DNA from: Chloroflexota bacterium
Lineage (GTDB): Bacteria; Chloroflexota; Anaerolineae; Ardenticatenales; Ardenticatenaceae
Direction: 5' to 3'
Assembly (NCBI GenBank): GCA_003520455.1
Contig: DOUV01000514.1
Location: 1 to 12,012, forward strand
Length of the DNA: 12,012 bases
This document shows, piece by piece, positions 4,051 to 12,012 of this stretch. The number at the start of each line of letters is the position of its first letter. Position 1 is the first letter of the stretch. The notes beneath the pieces are model-generated. The model made no database searches. It was not told the DNA's origin and saw only the letters and a list, made by a program, of their open reading frames with translations. The translations under genes were made by a program, and so were the position numbers.

Positions 4051-4138
4051 AGAGCGCCAGTCAAGGAGTCAGACTTCCAAAGTCTCGGAAGAGTTCGGAA
4101 GTCTCCGACCACGCGCCCGGGCGACTCTTTGACCGGTA
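4051..4138. repeat. Palindromic MITE/REP-like element A
   Basis: The element starts AGAGCGCCAGTCAAG (4051-4065) and ends CTTTGACCGGTA (4127-4138), imperfect terminal inverted repeats. Its core at 4071-4104 pairs AGACTTCCAAAGTCT with TTCGGAAGTCT and matches the core at 10575-10608 at 32 of 34 positions. Homology to the reverse complement of 10541-10620 continues through GAAGTCTCCGA..GCGCCC and TTGACCGGT. It lies between the last gene of the osmoprotectant operon and the downstream membrane gene, where it may also act as a transcript-end structure. Confidence 0.7.
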
Positions 4139-4140
4139 TG

Positions 4141-4776
4141 CTAACGCATCATGTCGCGGCCGATCCCCCACGACGCTCGCGCTTCGAGCCAACGGATGAC
4201 GAGGTTGACGACTGCGGCAAGAGCGGAGACGGCCAGGCTGCCGGCGACGATCTTTTGGGGGTTGCCCTGAGCCACCCCGCTGAACAGTAACTCACCGAGG
4301 CCACCGGCGTTGATCAGGCTGGCGATGGTGCCAATCGCGATCGTAGAGAGGGTGGCAATGCGAATGCCGGCCAGGATGACCGGCAGCGCCAGGGGCAGTT
4401 CGACCCTGTAGAAACGTTGCCAGGGGGTCATGCCCATGCCGCGCGCCGCCTCGATGATGGCCGGGTCGATCCCATCGAGGCCGACGACGATGTTGCGAAC
4501 GAGAATCACCTGCGCGTACGCTACCAGCGCTACGAGCGCGGCCTCGAGACCGAGGCCAAAGACCGGGATGAGCAGGACAAAGAGCGAGAGACTGGGAATC
4601 GTGTAGATCACGCTGAGCACCCCCAAGACCGGCCCCTGAACATTCTTGACACGGACCAGCAGCAGCCCGAGCGGCATTGCAATGAGCAGGGCCAGGACGA
4701 GCGTCAACCCTGTCATGCGCAGATGCTCGAGGAAGAGCCCCCAGACGATCTGGGGGTTGGTCAGGAGATAGTTCAC
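4141..4776 (-). CDS. opuBB: Osmoprotectant ABC transporter, permease (OpuBB-type)
   Basis: This 211-aa membrane protein has about five or six hydrophobic segments and the permease EAA loop EAARGMGMTPWQRFYRVELP (109-128), which docks on the ATPase. The fold and the QIVWGLFLEHLRMT start are typical of OpuBB/OpuCB/YehY permeases for glycine betaine, choline or related solutes. The start is GTG 4776, overlapping the TGA of the ATPase gene by 4 bp (GTGA), which indicates translational coupling; GAGG lies 8 nt upstream. It is the last of four genes in the operon and would pair with the other permease (6705-7352) as a heterodimeric channel. The exact substrate cannot be read from the sequence. Confidence 0.93.
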   Translation of the reverse strand: MNYLLTNPQIVWGLFLEHLRMTGLTLVLALLIAMPLGLLLVRVKNVQGPVLGVLSVIYTIPSLSLFVLLIPVFGLGLEAALVALVAYAQVILVRNIVVGLDGIDPAIIEAARGMGMTPWQRFYRVELPLALPVILAGIRIATLSTIAIGTIASLINAGGLGELLFSGVAQGNPQKIVAGSLAVSALAAVVNLVIRWLEARASWGIGRDMMR

Positions 4777-5732
4777 GGCTCATGCCTCGCATCGATGATC
4801 CTGTGGAGGGTCTCGAACGTGAGCAGGCCGAGGAGTTGGCCGTCGTCGTCAACCACCGACAGTGCCTCCTCTTGACTCTTCAGCAGATCGGACAGCGCCA
4901 CACGCAGGTTCCGGTTGGCGGGAATCGTGCTGCGCGGCGGCGCCCTCCAGTCGAGCGGCTCGAGCGCATCGCGGGCACACAGGAGGCTGAGGCGGCGGAG
5001 CACATCGTCGGCATCGACCAATATGGCCACGAACTCGTTCGCGGGATGGGTCAGGATTTCGAGCGGCGGCGCGAACTGCTCAACGCGCCCGTCGCGCAAC
5101 ACCAGGATTCTATCGGCCAGCCGCAGTGCCTCGTCCACGTCGTGCGTGACGAAGAGGATGGTCTTGGCGAGGCGCCGCTGGATCGCGAGGAATTCATCCT
5201 GCATTCGAGCCCGGGTGATGGCATCGAGGGCACCGAAAGGCTCATCCATCAGCATGATGCCCGGATCGACCGCCAGCGCCCGGGCAATACCGACGCGCTG
5301 CTGCTCTCCGCCCGAGAGTTGGCGCGGGTACCGCCGGTGAAAACTAAGCGGCAGGCTGACCATCTCCAGAAGTTCGTCGATGCGCCGGCGGATGCGGGCC
5401 TTGTCCCACCCCAGCAGCTTCGGCACGGTGGCGATGTTCTCTTCGACGGTCATGTGCGGGAAGAGACCGGTCTGCTGGATGACGTAACCGATCGAGCGGC
5501 GCAACCTGGTTTTCGGAATCTCGAGGATATTGGTCCCATCGATGAAGATCGCGCCGCTTGTCGGCTCGTAGAGCCGGTTGACCATCTTGAGCAGGGTGGT
5601 CTTGCCAGAGCCAGAGGGGCCAAGGAAGACGACCAATTCACCCTCCCCGACCTCGAAGCTTACGCCGTCAACGGCCGGCACCGCACTCTCGCGGAAGCGC
5701 CTGGTCAATCCCTCGACACGGATGGTACTCAT
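4773..5732 (-). CDS. opuBA: Osmoprotectant ABC transporter, ATP-binding protein with CBS-like tail
   Basis: This 319-aa ATPase energises compatible-solute uptake. All nucleotide-binding motifs are intact: Walker A GPSGSGKT (38-45), Q-loop QQTG (86-89), signature LSGGEQQ (139-145), Walker B IMLMDEP (159-165) and H-loop His197. After about residue 235 there is a tail ending in a CBS-like half (ALSVVDDDGQLLGLLTFETL, about 290-309). OpuA/OpuC ATPases often carry two tandem CBS domains that sense ionic strength or nucleotides; here only one is evident, with a degenerate stretch before it. ATG 5732 is 25 nt after the receptor gene's stop; the ribosome binding site is weak (GTGAG). The gene overlaps the next permease by 4 bp. 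Confidence 0.95.
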   Translation of the reverse strand: MSTIRVEGLTRRFRESAVPAVDGVSFEVGEGELVVFLGPSGSGKTTLLKMVNRLYEPTSGAIFIDGTNILEIPKTRLRRSIGYVIQQTGLFPHMTVEENIATVPKLLGWDKARIRRRIDELLEMVSLPLSFHRRYPRQLSGGEQQRVGIARALAVDPGIMLMDEPFGALDAITRARMQDEFLAIQRRLAKTILFVTHDVDEALRLADRILVLRDGRVEQFAPPLEILTHPANEFVAILVDADDVLRRLSLLCARDALEPLDWRAPPRSTIPANRNLRVALSDLLKSQEEALSVVDDDGQLLGLLTFETLHRIIDARHEP

Positions 5733-5757
5733 TGGCGCGCCGTCTCACCCCCGATCC

Positions 5758-6675
5758 TCATTTGCGAATCAGCCCTTTCTCCACCAGGAACTGGCGCGCG
5801 ACCTCGGCGGGCTCCATCTTCGCCGGCCCATCGACCTTCCAGTTGAGCTCCGCCATGACCTCGTTGGTCAGCAGCGGCTCCACCTTGTTGAGCGCATCGG
5901 CGATGCCCGGATTGGCGCTCAGGGTATCCTGGCGAACCACCGGAGCAGCCTGGTAGGGCGGATAGAAGTTCTTATCGTCTTCGAGGCGGACCAGGTCGTA
6001 CCCCTGGAGTTGGCCGTCAGTCCCGAAGGCGACGACCACGTCGATGTCACCGTTGAGCAGAGCCTGGTAGCGCAGGCCCGGATCAAGCTGGCGCTGATCT
6101 TTGAACTGGAAGCCTCCATAGGCCTTCTGCAGACCGGGCAGACCATCCTCGCGGGCGAAGAATTCCGGCGGCCCGCCGATGACCAGGTTCGGGGCCGCCT
6201 GGGACAGATCGCTGAAGGTGCGAAGATTGAACTGGTCGGCGATTTTGGGCGTGGTCGCCAGGGCCTGGGTGTCGTTGAACGGCGCCGGCTGAAGCCAGGT
6301 GAGCTTGAAGCGCTGCTCGTACTCGCTTTTCACCTTTTCGAAGATCGCCTGACGGTCACTCATCGGCTCGTCCTTAAGAACGGTCAGCAACGCCGTGGAG
6401 GTGTACTCCGGATAGAGGTCGATGTCGCCCTTCAGCAGCGCCTCGTGCGCGACAGGCGTCGCGCCGAGGTTCAGCTTGCGCTCGACCTTGAAGCCGGCAT
6501 CTTCGAGCAAGTCGGCGTACATCTCGCCGAGGATGAATTCCTCAGTGAAGTTTTTCGAGCCGATGGCGATGGTCGAGGTGGACTGCTGGCCTGTCAAGCG
6601 GTTGCAGGCGGGCAAGAGCAGCACCACGACGAATAGAATGAGAATGCTCCGGCGGGCGGCACGGACGTCACGCAT
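5758..6675 (-). CDS. opuBC: Osmoprotectant ABC transporter, substrate-binding lipoprotein
   Basis: The 305-aa product starts with Arg-rich MRDVRAARRS, a hydrophobic stretch and the lipobox LPAC (Cys24), so it is a lipid-anchored extracytoplasmic receptor. The mature part opens with the OpuAC/OpuBC hallmark IAIGSKNFTEEFILGEMYAD and contains DLYPEYTSTALL and a second-lobe DIDVVVAFGTDGQL, typical of receptors for quaternary amines such as glycine betaine, choline or carnitine. The open frame extends back to 6963, but that part overlaps the upstream permease gene out of frame; AAGGAGG 8 nt before ATG 6675 decides the start. It lies 29 nt after the upstream permease and 25 nt before the ATPase, the second gene of the operon. 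Ligand identity is not determinable here. Confidence 0.95.
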   Translation of the reverse strand: MRDVRAARRSILILFVVVLLLPACNRLTGQQSTSTIAIGSKNFTEEFILGEMYADLLEDAGFKVERKLNLGATPVAHEALLKGDIDLYPEYTSTALLTVLKDEPMSDRQAIFEKVKSEYEQRFKLTWLQPAPFNDTQALATTPKIADQFNLRTFSDLSQAAPNLVIGGPPEFFAREDGLPGLQKAYGGFQFKDQRQLDPGLRYQALLNGDIDVVVAFGTDGQLQGYDLVRLEDDKNFYPPYQAAPVVRQDTLSANPGIADALNKVEPLLTNEVMAELNWKVDGPAKMEPAEVARQFLVEKGLIRK

Positions 6676-6704
6676 ACAGTCTTCCTCCTTGCTCGTACGA
6701 TTCC

Positions 6705-7352
6705 TTACGATCGGGCGGCCGGCGGGCTGAGCTGGTGTTGAACCGTTGCGAGCACGCCCTCGGCGAGAAGCGCCAACAGAGCCACGGGAATCGCGCCAGC
6801 CAGCATGACTCTGGCATCGAAGAGCGCGAAGCCGCGAAGGATAAAATCGCCCAATCCACCGCCGCCGATAAAAGCAGCCAGCGTTGCGCTCGCGATCACC
6901 TCGACCGTCGCCGTTCGAACCCCAGCAATGATCACCGGCAGTGCCAGTGGAAACTCGACCCAACGCAGAATCTGCGCCGTACTCATCCCCATCCCGCGGG
7001 CAGACTCCACAACCTCATCCGGGACGCTTCGGAAGCCGGCATAGGTGTTGATAAGGATGGGTGGAATGGCGAGGATCGTGATGGCCACCAATGCTGGGAC
7101 GAAGCCAAGCCCGAGGTATGGGTAGGCCAGGAAAAGAATGGCGAGGCTGGGCACGACCCGCAGCGCGTTGGTCAGGTTGATGGCGAGCGGTGCGACGACC
7201 AGGTGACGTGCGACAAGAATGCCCGACGGCAGGCCGATGAGAAACGCAAGCGTCAGTGCCGAAAGGCTCAAAATGACATGGGTCTCGAGGGAGTTCAAGA
7301 AAAAACGGGGGTTGCGCTGGGCATATTCAAATGCACCGATCAGCAAGCTCAC
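6705..7352 (-). CDS. opuBD: Osmoprotectant ABC transporter, permease (OpuBD-type), first gene of operon
   Basis: This 215-aa permease has about five or six membrane segments and an EAA-type loop, VESARGMGMSTAQILRWVE (115-133), followed by FPLALPVIIAGVRTATVEVI. The GGGGLGDFI motif near residue 163 is typical of OpuBB/OpuBD/YehW permeases. Translation starts at GTG 7352, with AAGGA 5 nt upstream. It is the first gene of a tight four-gene operon (permease, receptor, ATPase, permease), the layout of OpuB/OpuC/OsmU systems. The 275 bp upstream hold no gene; a 6-bp dyad CACCAG/CTGGTG at 7382-7404 might be an operator, but I cannot support a defined promoter. Confidence 0.93.
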   Translation of the reverse strand: MSLLIGAFEYAQRNPRFFLNSLETHVILSLSALTLAFLIGLPSGILVARHLVVAPLAINLTNALRVVPSLAILFLAYPYLGLGFVPALVAITILAIPPILINTYAGFRSVPDEVVESARGMGMSTAQILRWVEFPLALPVIIAGVRTATVEVIASATLAAFIGGGGLGDFILRGFALFDARVMLAGAIPVALLALLAEGVLATVQHQLSPPAARS

Positions 7353-8409: not shown

Positions 8410-8836
8410 AGGGATCCCCCTTTCATGTGCAAAAGCAAACATTGATGGATCTGATACTGCCGGGCGGATGGGTCCGGCACCCAGAAGAACCACACATGCT
8501 ACTAGCAATGAACGTGCCGTGCGCTTGACGCGACCGGGCGGCTGCTGGTGAGGGTCGAGCGCCCGGAGAGAGGTGCCGTCTTCCAGCACAACACGGTCGT
8601 AGTCCGCTGCACCCACTCCACTGGCGTTTCCCTCTCGGCCCTCCTCCTCGAACCTTGCGCGGCCTCGATTGCAATCATTCTGGCTCGACAAAACCACGAT
8701 TCATCAGCGAGGCGGCGATCAGTCGGGAAAACCATCGCCCCACCAGGCTGGCTTGATTCTTGCTCTTTTCGACCGGTGTTGAACTGTCGAGAGCCCTGGC
8801 TGCGCCGGCGGTGGCAGGCGGGAGGGAGGCCTCAAC
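8410..8836. other. Intergenic region between divergent BON gene and glycosyltransferase remnant
   Basis: I find no supportable gene in these 427 bases. On the - strand, the BON frame stays open to 8697 and encodes a short hydrophobic stretch (RSLLVACVVLLGAG), which would be a signal peptide only if translation began further upstream. On the + strand, an open frame from 8548 runs through but shows no family resemblance before about 8970. Promoters for the two divergent genes presumably lie here but were not identified. Confidence 0.5.
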
Positions 8837-8971
8837 GTGCGCAATATTCTTTTCGTGGAACTCTTGGGCGGAATCGGCGACGTTTTGATTGCGCTGCCCA
8901 CCATCCAGGCCCTGGGTCGCTCCCACCGCGAAGCCGTGCTCACCGTTTTGACCTTTACCCCGGGGCGCTAG
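8837..8971 (+). pseudogene. Glycosyltransferase family 9 N-terminal fragment
   Basis: GTG 8837, with GGGAGG 7 nt upstream, opens a 44-codon frame ending at TAG 8969-8971. The translation, MRNILFVELLGGIGDVLIAL onward to PTIQALGRSHREAVLTVLTF, is the classic N-terminal strand and glycine loop of GT9 (ADP-heptose:LPS heptosyltransferase-like) enzymes, which normally run to about 330-350 aa. Everything after about residue 42 is missing: the sequence changes abruptly to a different glycosyltransferase in another frame. The intact ribosome binding site and start suggest a recently functional gene cut by a deletion or recombination. It cannot encode an active enzyme. Confidence 0.75.
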
Positions 8972-9525
8972 TGGCCGACCTCGGCCTCGCCGGGCTGGTC
9001 CACATGACCGGTTACCTGCCGGCGCCGACCGCCTCGCACCGTCTGGCCGGCGCCGACATTGGTGTGCTGCCCTTCAATGGAGGCGTCACCCTCAAGAGCG
9101 GCTCGCTCCTGGCGCTCCTGGCCCACGGCCTGCCTGTTGTCGCCACCCGCCACGATCCGCTAGACCCCGATCTGGTCGACGGGCACACTGTCCGGCTCGT
9201 CGCTCCCCGCGATATCGAGGGCCTGGCCAGGGCGTTGCTGCAGCGCCTTGCTCAGCCGGTGGTGCGTGCCCGGCTGGGCATCGCCGGTCGCGCCTTCGCC
9301 GGCAACTTCACCTGGTCGGGCATCGCTCAACGGCACTTCGATGTCTACCAGACTGTTCTCGGGAATCGACCAATCACCGCAACGCCCCAGCCGCCGCGGC
9401 CCGGCCGGGAGGCCACTCGATGGCAAGAACGATTGGCCGAACATAGAACGTGTTGCGCACGCCGACGTGAATCGAGACATTTCCGCCTTTTTGGCCGGGA
9501 TATCGAGAGCGGAAAGAGCCCGTAA
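8969..9525 (+). pseudogene. Glycosyltransferase family 4 C-terminal fragment
   Basis: In the frame offset from the GT9 fragment, the sequence LVADLGLAGLVHMTGYLPAP, then AGADIGVLPFNGGVTLKSGS and LLALLAHGLPVVATR is the nucleotide-sugar-binding half of a GT4 enzyme (GT-B fold), continuing to ARLGIAGRAFAGNFTWSGIA and RHFDVYQTVL near 9360. The acceptor-binding N-terminal half is absent. The frame runs on to TAA 9523-9525, but the last 50 or so codons (Arg-rich) do not look like the family and are probably read-through. No start or ribosome binding site belongs to this fragment. Together with the GT9 piece it looks like the scar of a deletion between two neighbouring sugar-transferase genes. Confidence 0.7.
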
Positions 9526-9531
9526 ACATGG

Positions 9532-9560
9532 GGTGGGCGAGGGCAGTGCCCTCGCCCACC
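9532..9560. repeat. REP-like perfect palindrome, copy 2
   Basis: Arms 9532-9545 and 9547-9560 are perfectly complementary (GGTGGGCGAGGGCA / TGCCCTCGCCCACC) around a single central G. As RNA it would form a 13-bp hairpin with a 3-nt loop. It follows the glycosyltransferase remnant by 7 nt and shares its core with 2844-2862. No T-run follows. Confidence 0.7.
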
Positions 9561-9586
9561 GGGCCTCACTGCGCCAACAGGAGCGT

Positions 9587-9599
9587 CACGTTTTACGTG
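9587..9599. promoter_or_regulatory. Possible operator dyad upstream of the ZIP-like gene
   Basis: CACGT (9587-9591) and ACGTG (9595-9599) form a 5-bp dyad with a TTT spacer, about 50 nt before the GTG start of the metal transporter. Metal uptake genes are commonly under dyad-binding repressors, but I recognise no specific box here. Confidence 0.2.
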
Positions 9600-9650
9600 C
9601 CAGCAATCTGTGCACCTTTGAACGATACGACATCACCGAGAGACACCATC

Positions 9651-10384
9651 GTGTTGAGCGCACGCCAGGACGTTCTGATCTACATCCTCATTCCCGCAGC
9701 GGCCATCGTTGCCGGGAGCGGTCTCGCCGCGTTCTACGAACCGGGGACAAAGCTTGAAAGCGCGATCCAACACTTCGCCGCCGGCATGATCTTCGCCGCC
9801 ATTGCAGGTGAGCTGTTGCCTCAGGTGCACGACCGCCAGCCCCTGACGGTCGGCATCGGCTTCGCGTTCGGAACCCTCGCCATGCTGATCATCAAATGGC
9901 TTATCGAGGACGTCTGGCAGGTCAAAGGCGGGGCGGCTCACGAGAGCGCTGACGCTGTGGGACTGATCACTGCGACGGGCGTGAACTTCGTGGTTGACGG
10001 CTTTCTGCTCGGGCTCGGATTTACTGTGGGGGTCGAAGAGGGGGTTCTCCTCATGGTCGCTGTCGCCGTCGAGATTTTTTTGTTGGCCTCAGCGGAGCGG
10101 CCGCACTGCAGGATACGGAAATATCGCGCGGGAAGAGCATCGCAGCCGCGCTCGGGTTGGCAGCGCTGTTCCTGGTTCCCGCAGCGGCCGGCGTGACGAT
10201 CTTCAGTGGCGTTTCCGGACCCGTCTTCGCGGCGGTCATCGCGTTCGGGGCTGCCGCCCTGCTCTACATTGTGATCGAGGAGTTATTCGTCGAGGCCCAC
10301 CAGAAGGTGCCCGAAAACCCGGTCATCGCGTCCACATTCTTTATCGGATTCCTGGCACTCCTGCTCGTCGAGATGGTCGCGTAG
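9651..10384 (+). CDS. ZIP-like metal transporter interrupted by a -1 frame change
   Basis: Frame one from GTG 9651 encodes a multi-pass membrane protein (YILIPAAAIVAGSGLAAFYE, FAAGMIFAAIAGELLPQV, GVNFVVDGFLLGLGF, VAVAVEIF). At a T7 run (10075-10081) the family-like sequence moves to the -1 frame and continues GLSGAAALQDTEISRGKSIA, then ALFLVPAAAGVTIF and LLYIVIEELFVEAHQ to TAG 10382-10384. Joined, it is about 244 aa, the normal size for bacterial ZIP (Zrt/Irt-like) transporters. The helix with Asn-x3-Asp (NFVVD) resembles ZIP helix 4, but the usual histidines of helices 4 and 5 (HN..., HE...) appear absent, so metal specificity is doubtful. Without frameshifting, frame one would end in about 38 wrong residues. 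The start is weakly supported (GAGAG 8 nt upstream). It could be a pseudogene, sequencing error or programmed shift. Confidence 0.65.
10076..10082 (+). other. Candidate -1 slippery heptamer in the ZIP-like gene
   Basis: In the zero frame the heptamer reads T TTT TTG, permitting tandem -1 slippage to TTT TTT, after which the ZIP-like sequence continues in frame. Seven nucleotides downstream, CAGCGG (10090-10095) can pair with CCGCACTG (10101-10108) with a two-base bulge, within the usual spacer range. The T7 run could equally suffer transcriptional slippage or a one-base deletion from T8. Confidence 0.4.
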
Positions 10385-10537
10385 AGCGCCGGTCAAGTCC
10401 TCAGACTTCCGAAGTCTGGTAGGGAGCGTGCTGGCCCAACACGCACTCCGACGACGGTGAGAGAGGCGGGCACTTGCCGCGAACAAGACTTCGGAAGTCT
10501 TTTCCCTAGCCCCGCAGGATTCCTTGGCCGGTGCTCT
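10383..10537. repeat. MITE/REP-like palindromic element B
   Basis: Terminal inverted repeats AGAGCGCCGGTCAAG (10383-10397) and CTTGGCCGGTGCTCT (10523-10537) match at 13 of 15. Just inside each end lies a perfect or near-perfect palindrome, AGACTTCCGAAGTCT (10403-10417) and AGACTTCGGAAGTCT (10486-10500). The 155-bp element has no coding capacity and its left end overlaps the stop codon of the ZIP-like gene. The left 35 bp closely match 4051-4085 of element A. The design is that of a non-autonomous, miniature inverted-repeat or REP-pair element. Confidence 0.7.
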
Positions 10538-10540
10538 AGA

Positions 10541-10620
10541 ACCGGTCAAGCTGTCGCCGAGGGCGCATGATCGGAGACTTCCGAAGTCTCGGAAGACTTC
10601 GGAAGTCTCACGACTGGCGG
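10541..10620. repeat. MITE/REP-like palindromic element C
   Basis: Directly after element B, ACCGGTCAAG (10541-10550) and CGACTGGCGG (10611-10620) bound a core (10575-10608) of two opposed palindromes, AGACTTCCGAAGTCT and AGACTTCGGAAGTCT. The reverse complement aligns with element A over almost its full length. Elements B and C are arranged back to back. Confidence 0.7.
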
Positions 10621-10917
10621 CAGACAACACAACGCAGCGGCGAGCCTGACAATTCTCGATAAGGGCGCACGACCGGGGCGAATTCCGCCTCGCCGGACGC
10701 CCAAACGAATTGAACGGCAACGGGCGCACGGCCGTACGGCCCCACGAACCCCCGGCGCTCTCAAACGACTTCGGATCGGCCCCTGGCGGCATCCTCACGG
10801 CTCGCCAGGACCGGCGTTTCGAAGGTATACTTATTCTTACCAAAGAATCGTCCCTGCCGCATTGCAACGTCTCACCCCTTTCCGTCGCAGTGCCATTCTC
10901 ATGAGAGGAGAACCGAA
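10621..10917. other. Upstream region of the formate dehydrogenase gene
   Basis: No gene is supportable in these 297 bases. The first part holds GC-rich repeat-like stretches, such as GGGCGCACGGCCGTACGGCC near 10718 and GGCGAATTCCGCCTCGCC near 10677. The part from 10820 to 10850 is markedly more AT-rich and includes TATACT (10826-10831), a possible -10 element without a convincing -35, and the dyad at 10833-10848. Confidence 0.45.
10833..10848. promoter_or_regulatory. AT-rich dyad, possible operator for formate dehydrogenase
   Basis: ATTCTT (10833-10838) and AAGAAT (10843-10848) form a perfect 6-bp dyad with a 4-nt spacer. It begins 2 bp after a TATACT hexamer and lies 70 nt before the start codon, where a repressor could block a promoter. 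No regulator family is assigned. Confidence 0.3.
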
Positions 10918-12012
10918 TTGGGCATTCGCGATCTACTCGAAACCCACGTTGGTCTGGTACCGAACCCGATCAGCCCCAAGACCGGCCAGGCGCACTCCCG
11001 AACCCGGGGAGCCTCAGTCAGGATCAGTGTCTGCCCTTACTGTGCCGTTGGCTGCTCGCAACTTGTCTACACGAAGAATGGACGGATCATCGACATCGAG
11101 GGCAATTACGAGAGTCCGATCAACGGCGGCACGCTCTGCCCAAAAGGGGCGGCGACCTTCGGGCTGCTCCACAACCCCCTCCGGCAGACCAAAGTCCAGT
11201 ACCGCGCGCCCTACAGCGATCATTGGGAGGAGCGCCCGCTCGAGTGGGCGATGGAGCGCATCGCCTGCCTGATCAAGCAGACACGCGACGCCAGCTTCGA
11301 GGAGACCGACGAGAACGGGATGGCCGTCAACCGCACTCTGGCGATTGGCCACCTCGGCGGCGCGACCCTCGACAACGAAGAGAACTACCTGATCAAGAAA
11401 CTCTGGACCGCGGGGCTCGGGATCGTCGCCGTCGAGAATCAGGCCCGCATATGACACTCCAGCACGGTGCCCGGTCTGGGCGCCCGCCTCGGTCGCGGCG
11501 GCGCGACCACCACGCAGCAGAGCCTGGCTGACAGCGACTGCGTCGTCATCATGGGCTCCAACATGGCGGAGAACCACCCGGTTGGGTTCCGCTTCGTCAT
11601 GAAGGCCAAAGAGCGCGGTGCGACGGTCATCCATGTGGACCCCCGCTTCTCGCGGACCTCGGCGCTGGCCGACATCCACGTCCCGCTCCGGGCGGGAAGC
11701 GACCTCGCCATGCTCGGCGGCCTGATCAACTACATCGTCAATAGCGAGCGTTGGAAGAGCGACCCCTTCTTCAAGGCGTACGTCACCCACTACACCAACG
11801 CGCCGGTGATCATCAATCCGGCCTTCAGGGACACGGAGGATCTGGGGGGGCTCTTCTCAGGCTACAACCCCGAAAAGCGGCGGTACGACTTCGACACGTG
11901 GCAGGTCGCCGCGCAGCCCGGTACCCCACCGGCCCCACCCGATCCGGGGCGAATGCCAGCCGGCTCTCCCGGCCGAGGCCAGCAGGAAGGCGGCCCCGGC
12001 GCCCAAGAGGCG
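10918..12012 (+). CDS. fdnG: Formate dehydrogenase alpha subunit, selenocysteine-containing (5' part)
   Basis: TTG 10918, 7 nt after AGAGGAG, opens a frame that reaches the window end through one in-frame TGA (11452-11454). The product is the molybdopterin catalytic subunit that oxidises formate to CO2. Its [4Fe-4S] cysteines are C39, C42, C46 and C74 (CPYCAVGC...LCPKG). After NQARI, TGA encodes Sec179, followed by HSSTVPGLGARLGRGG and then MGSNMAENHPVGFRFVMKAK, VIHVDPRFSRTSALADIHVP and LFSGYN, all typical of FdnG/FdoG-type enzymes where Sec ligates Mo. The final 30 residues form a Pro/Gly/Gln-rich insert. Unlike E. coli FdnG there is no twin-arginine signal at the chosen start, so a cytoplasmic location is suggested. 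The 3' two thirds lies outside the window. A conventional gene finder would wrongly stop it at 11454. Confidence 0.93.
11452..11454 (+). other. In-frame UGA read as selenocysteine
   Basis: TGA falls exactly at the catalytic position, in the context NQARI-U-H, matching NQAR-x-U-H of known Sec formate dehydrogenases. Family-like sequence resumes at once in the same frame, so it is not a stop or frameshift. Confidence 0.93.
11455..11484 (+). promoter_or_regulatory. Bacterial SECIS element
   Basis: Eleven nucleotides after the UGA, GGTGCCC (11466-11472) pairs with GGGCGCC (11478-11484) around the loop GGTCT (11473-11477). This reproduces the E. coli fdhF SECIS minihelix: same 11-nt distance, same GGUCU loop recognised by SelB. 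Unlike fdhF there is no bulged U; the corresponding U is in a U-G wobble. Confidence 0.88.

Follow-up and report, generated by a model that had tools for sequence, protein, structure and literature searches.

The 3′ end of the analysed stretch of DNA (12,012 nt from a Chloroflexota bacterium, hereafter the window) almost certainly carries a standard bacterial selenoprotein gene, encoding a formate dehydrogenase alpha subunit with a UGA-encoded active-site selenocysteine (Sec) and followed, after the UGA, by a normal SECIS hairpin. Both the gene and its SECIS are ordinary, and there is no novelty in the missing bulge of the hairpin's stem.

The gene for this molybdopterin enzyme occupies the 1095 bases at the window's 3′ end (10918–12012, forward strand); its 5′ part begins at a TTG codon, with AGAGGAGA just upstream at about 10902–10909, and runs off the window's end. 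Read with the standard code, the protein stops after 178 residues at a TGA (11452–11454, forward strand), while the gene in fact continues as that of a selenoenzyme. As the initial annotation had stated, this TGA is in frame; the frame opens with the TTG at 10918, and the protein context is NQARI-U-HSSTVPGLGARLGRGGATT. With the TGA read as Sec (residue 179), the frame yields 365 residues up to the window's end, containing a single TGA and no other stop. The translation through the TGA scores over the Pfam cut-offs for Molybdop_Fe4S4 (PF04879) and Molybdopterin (PF00384). The NCBIfam models formate_DH_Act (1.4e-142) and formate-DH-alph (5.5e-101) also match, and the top three NCBIfam models are all formate dehydrogenases, with scores below the whole-protein cut-offs because the gene is cut by the window's end. 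The closest relative among the matches listed, from Bacterium HR26 (L001), has a protein identity of 80%; its locus encodes a full alpha subunit, then a ferredoxin-like Fe-S subunit (Pfam) and then a membrane protein, which looks NrfD-like by eye from the list of open reading frames. By analogy with known systems, the formate dehydrogenase of the window is probably membrane-bound.

We compared the window with the best 80 of at least 583 confirmed matches, a set that represents near relatives and not all formate dehydrogenases. To judge by the names of most of the nearest relatives, the host is probably a Thermomicrobia-like member of the Chloroflexota. The alignment with Cys- and Sec-bearing homologues, which the initial annotation had proposed, shows TGA at the codon in 77 of these 81 sequences, TGC in three (L038, L042 and L046) and TAG in one (L077); the site is therefore UGA in this gene and Cys in some homologues. 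If the TGA were instead a true stop codon or had arisen by a sequencing error, the gene would be truncated or broken, and two other regions of the window do look frameshifted. Such a reading is very improbable, however, in view of the 77 TGA codons among the 81 sequences, of a frame that stays open and conserved 3′ of the TGA (in the translation and in relatives), and of an RGUYU loop downstream that is present in all 77 TGA genes and in the TAG gene and absent from the three Cys genes.

This loop belongs to the upper hairpin of the SECIS (11466–11484, forward strand), which we placed by predicted fold and conservation. Counting the U of UGA as position 1, a 7-bp stem joins GGUGCCC (positions 15–21; 11466–11472) to GGGCGCC (positions 27–33; 11478–11484) around a GGUCU loop (positions 22–26; 11473–11477). 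The spacer between UGA and helix is 11 nt (positions 4–14), in agreement with the GGUCU-loop minihelix first annotated at that distance. The hairpin appears in both the minimum-free-energy and the centroid structure of 52 nt. For so GC-rich a sequence, the folding energy of the 52 nt is not significant (z = 0.31, with 114 of 200 shuffles folding equally well), and the 19-nt hairpin alone, a stretch picked after the fact, reaches −13 kcal/mol (z = −3.6; 0 of 200 shuffles). The evidence for the hairpin is its conservation and not its energy. The two strands of the window together contain 348 TGA triplets, of which only the one at 11452 is followed by a 7-bp stem closing an RGUYU loop, with 10–34 nt allowed from the TGA to the loop. 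Rfam gave no match at the gathering score anywhere in the window, and ARAGORN found no tRNA gene in it.

The bacterial SECIS model, as set out in a 2026 review (PMC13188914), has a loop of 3–9 nt and a stem of 4–16 bp (Fig. 2A legend), a G in the first two loop positions, 16–37 nt from UGA to loop and a minimum free energy of −7.5 kcal/mol or lower. The hairpin lies within every one of these limits (loop of 5 nt beginning with GG, stem of 7 bp, 18 nt from UGA to loop, and the −13 kcal/mol of the 19-nt hairpin) and departs from none of the constraints listed there, which bears out its initial description as a textbook SECIS.

The comparison separates selection on the RNA from selection on the protein. 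Across the 77 TGA genes (the window and the best 80 of at least 583 matches), positions 17, 23, 24 and 26 are invariant, the loop is GGUCU in 60, AGUUU in 12 and AGUCU in 5, and all 7 stem pairs are formed in 59, 6 in 16 and 5 in 2. Seven codons past the UGA, Gly is always encoded by GGT (60/60) and Ser always by AGT (17/17); elsewhere in these genes, in their flanks, GGT makes up 10.6% of the 1889 Gly codons and AGT 5.5% of the Ser codons, and in the window's own flanks GGT accounts for 1 of 25 Gly codons. The bases at positions 18 and 30, each third in its codon and hence synonymous, are paired in 97% of the 68 distinct sequences; the mean in shuffles is 54%, and 0 of 10,000 reach the observed value. 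Their mutual information (0.905) ranks first among 190 third-base pairs, the next being 0.411. When the partner strand was slid, at most 56.7% of cells were paired, compared to 94.9% in register (31 chosen sequences, namely 30 of the 77 TGA sequences and the TAG sequence). On this comparative evidence, the identity of the UGA and of the hairpin is established, and the hairpin's conservation reflects selection on the RNA that accompanies a stop codon decoded as Sec. The claim of a true selenoprotein gene is upheld by the retention of TGA, the synonymous covariation in the SECIS and the fixed loop codon.

Could the hairpin be a mere by-product of the conserved VPGLG peptide, with no signal of its own? 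Amino acids do fix U17 and several stem bases, and the Cys homologues, a control of three sequences only, keep the VPGLG peptide along with 5, 6 and 5 of the 7 stem pairs, so that part of the stem either reflects the common peptide or is a relic. Nevertheless, we consider this explanation scarcely credible, since the third-base covariation at 18–30 and the fixed GGT or AGT are synonymous and not dictated by the peptide, and since the Cys homologues have VPGLG without GGU. Their loop codon is GGG or GGC; U24 is thereby lost, and the RGUYU loop is absent. Consequently, the stem follows in part from the peptide, but the loop and the 18–30 covariation do not. In the class of one Cys genome (G020), which we take to be Alphaproteobacteria, 4 of 142 genomes have a match: G020 itself and three with TGA, whose genes have the RGUYU loop and 6, 5 and 5 of the 7 pairs.

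The hairpin resembles the fdhF SECIS of E. coli in most respects. In both, an in-frame UGA is followed by CAC and an 11-nt gap to the minihelix, GGUCU occupies positions 22–26, and U17, G23 and U24 are in the same register (numbering as given in PMC8659212). In E. coli, according to this 2021 review, U17 has to be held in a bulge, and readthrough is lost when U17 is mutated. Unlike fdhF, where U17 is an unpaired bulge according to the same source, the hairpin in the window has 7 continuous pairs. Here U17 (11468, forward strand), the second base of a Val codon and in the register of the fdhF bulged U, faces G31 (11482) in a predicted U–G wobble; no base is thus forced out, and the unpaired U17 of the E. 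coli type is absent from the predicted fold. As drawn here, fdhF has a shorter upper stem and a 6-nt loop; its SECIS sequence occurs in 5368 of 5426 E. coli genomes. The Moorella thermoacetica fdhA SECIS bound by SelB (PDB 1WSU) reportedly has a fully paired stem and a GGUCU loop.

We found that a U17 able to pair is common. In the 77 TGA genes, again from the window and the best 80 of at least 583 matches, the base opposite U17 is A in 39 genes, G in 35 and U in the other 3 (L002, L006 and L009), so that U17 faces a pairable base in 74 of 77, and the record titles span several phyla. The initial annotation's statement that the stem has a U–G wobble and no bulged U is therefore correct for the predicted fold, but the feature is not distinctive. 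The weight that it gave to the missing bulge, as a variation worth comparing across phyla, was not supported by the comparison: the pattern is shared by near relatives in several phyla, and the bacterial model, as restated in PMC13188914, lists no bulged U among its constraints. Judged from the aligned sequences, the absent bulge characterises the near relatives collectively and not the window in particular.

The invariance of U17 is confounded with coding. In each of the 68 distinct sequences U17 falls in the middle of a Val codon, as it does in E. coli fdhF (GTT), and the codons that begin at position 31 encode Thr, Ala, Ile, Val or Ser. Neither the invariance of U17 nor its pairing can therefore be taken as a requirement of SelB, and in this set conservation alone cannot show that SelB needs U17.

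By analogy with known systems, from which we infer SelB binding, Sec insertion, membrane location and enzyme activity, SelB carrying Sec-tRNA-Sec would bind the hairpin 11 nt past the UGA, mainly via G23 and U24, and Sec would be inserted at the UGA instead of termination. In the free RNA, the stem would be a mostly continuous helix, because position 31, opposite the Val-fixed U17, is A, G or occasionally U. We tentatively propose, with a little less than even confidence, that the SelB of these bacteria reads a fully paired SECIS by its loop alone and needs no bulged U. If so, dependence on U17 would be a specialisation of the E. coli type, and the invariant U17 would be an echo of the Val codon. 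Another reading shares the decoding of the Sec codon and differs on how SelB reads the hairpin: U17 may still be a SelB contact, the weak U–A, U–G or U–U opposition opening and U17 flipping out on binding, which we hold to be possible at somewhat below an even chance. The hairpin would then lack a bulge in appearance only. Such flipping is consistent with U17, G23 and U24 lying in the register reported for E. coli fdhF (contacts in PMC8659212) and with the three U–U mismatches, which suggest that the 17–31 pair is dispensable. U17 is also invariant in 77/77 TGA genes (best 80 of at least 583 matches), but Val forces this invariance, which makes it uninformative on SelB.

A contact at U17 is further disfavoured by the SelD genes of related genomes, of which we read 12 with TGA and 2 with TGC. 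GGU was located in 9 of the 12 TGA-bearing genes, and the base matching U17 is G in all 9; the remaining 3 gave no GGU within the range covered. GGU also stands at that place in the two Cys SelD genes (L149 and L150), so the loop there is partly coding and the SelD control is weak. Folding of the SelD hairpins left out one gene (L143).

We also searched for Sec machinery, using 21 genomes selected among those that contain the best 80 of at least 583 loci; 17 of the 21 (G001–G017) carry a formate dehydrogenase with a Sec TGA. SelA scored over its cut-off in 17/17, SelB in 15/17 (the exceptions being G001 and G009) and SelD in 13/17 (the exceptions being G001, G002, G003 and G009). A tRNA-Sec(UCA) was found in 11/17, a count in which a missing gene is weak evidence, given the covariance search (123 candidates scored per genome) and ARAGORN; because some best hits over the cut-off are ordinary tRNA-Ser or tRNA-Leu, counts use the ARAGORN anticodon of the best hit. 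All four genes occur together in 10/17 (G004, G005, G006, G007, G010, G012, G013, G015, G016 and G017), including two Thermomicrobium genomes (G004 and G005). The initial annotation's deduction that the host has selA, selB, selC and selD may hold, though the full set does not occur in each of these relatives' genomes. The genome of the closest relative among the matches listed (G001) has SelA and tRNA-Sec, while neither SelB nor SelD scores above its cut-off there; of the Sec machinery, G009 has SelA alone; both are split into many contigs, and the absence of Sec genes from them is therefore weak evidence. Within the fetched flanks of the formate dehydrogenase genes, a tRNA-Sec(UCA) gene lies at 6 of the 60 loci scanned (L044, L048, L049, L051, L054 and L055). 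The SelB of Thermomicrobium (L083) contains two winged-helix domains of the SelB type (Pfam), and its match to the solved SelB chain 5lzb_z covers almost the whole length.

In two of the three Cys genomes (G018 and G020), SelA gave no match and SelB none above the cut-off; SelD is present in G020. The third, a Lautropia MAG (G019), has SelA, SelB, SelD and tRNA-Sec(UCA), and its formate dehydrogenase (L042) carries Cys despite this full machinery: either the formate dehydrogenase gene alone lost Sec while the organism retained it, or the MAG is a mixed bin, or a further Sec gene is present.

The TAG gene comes from a Blastococcus MAG (L077; genome G021), where TAG stands at 431–433 in place of TGA and the SECIS is intact, including the RGUYU loop. 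This genome has SelA, SelB, SelD and two tRNA-Sec genes with a CUA anticodon, which ARAGORN labels tRNA-Pyl; one is near selA-selB and the other near selD (L120 and L132). Sec decoded by UAG has already been described in Blastococcus, for AhpC (PMC5330540).

Several features elsewhere in the window were recorded. A short palindrome, AGACTTCSGAAGTCT, occurs at 10404–10607 and 4072–4103, apparently in intergenic DNA. Its core gives 12 both-strand matches with at most 2 mismatches, corresponding to 6 places, compared to 1.0 match expected; four of the six places are upstream of the formate dehydrogenase gene, and the palindrome is possibly a small interspersed repeat. At 9528–10420 lies a membrane-transporter-like frame, presumably of the ZIP type, with no Pfam match in its first part and an apparent frame change at about 10100, which reflects either a broken gene or a sequencing indel. 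Stretches resembling pieces of glycosyltransferases lie in different frames at 8560–9540, perhaps a decayed gene region. The window further holds genes for a glycine-betaine-type ABC transporter (4141–7352, reverse strand; an ATPase, two permeases and an OsmF/OpuAC-like binding protein) and for CBS-domain and universal stress proteins (424–945 and 1173–2558).
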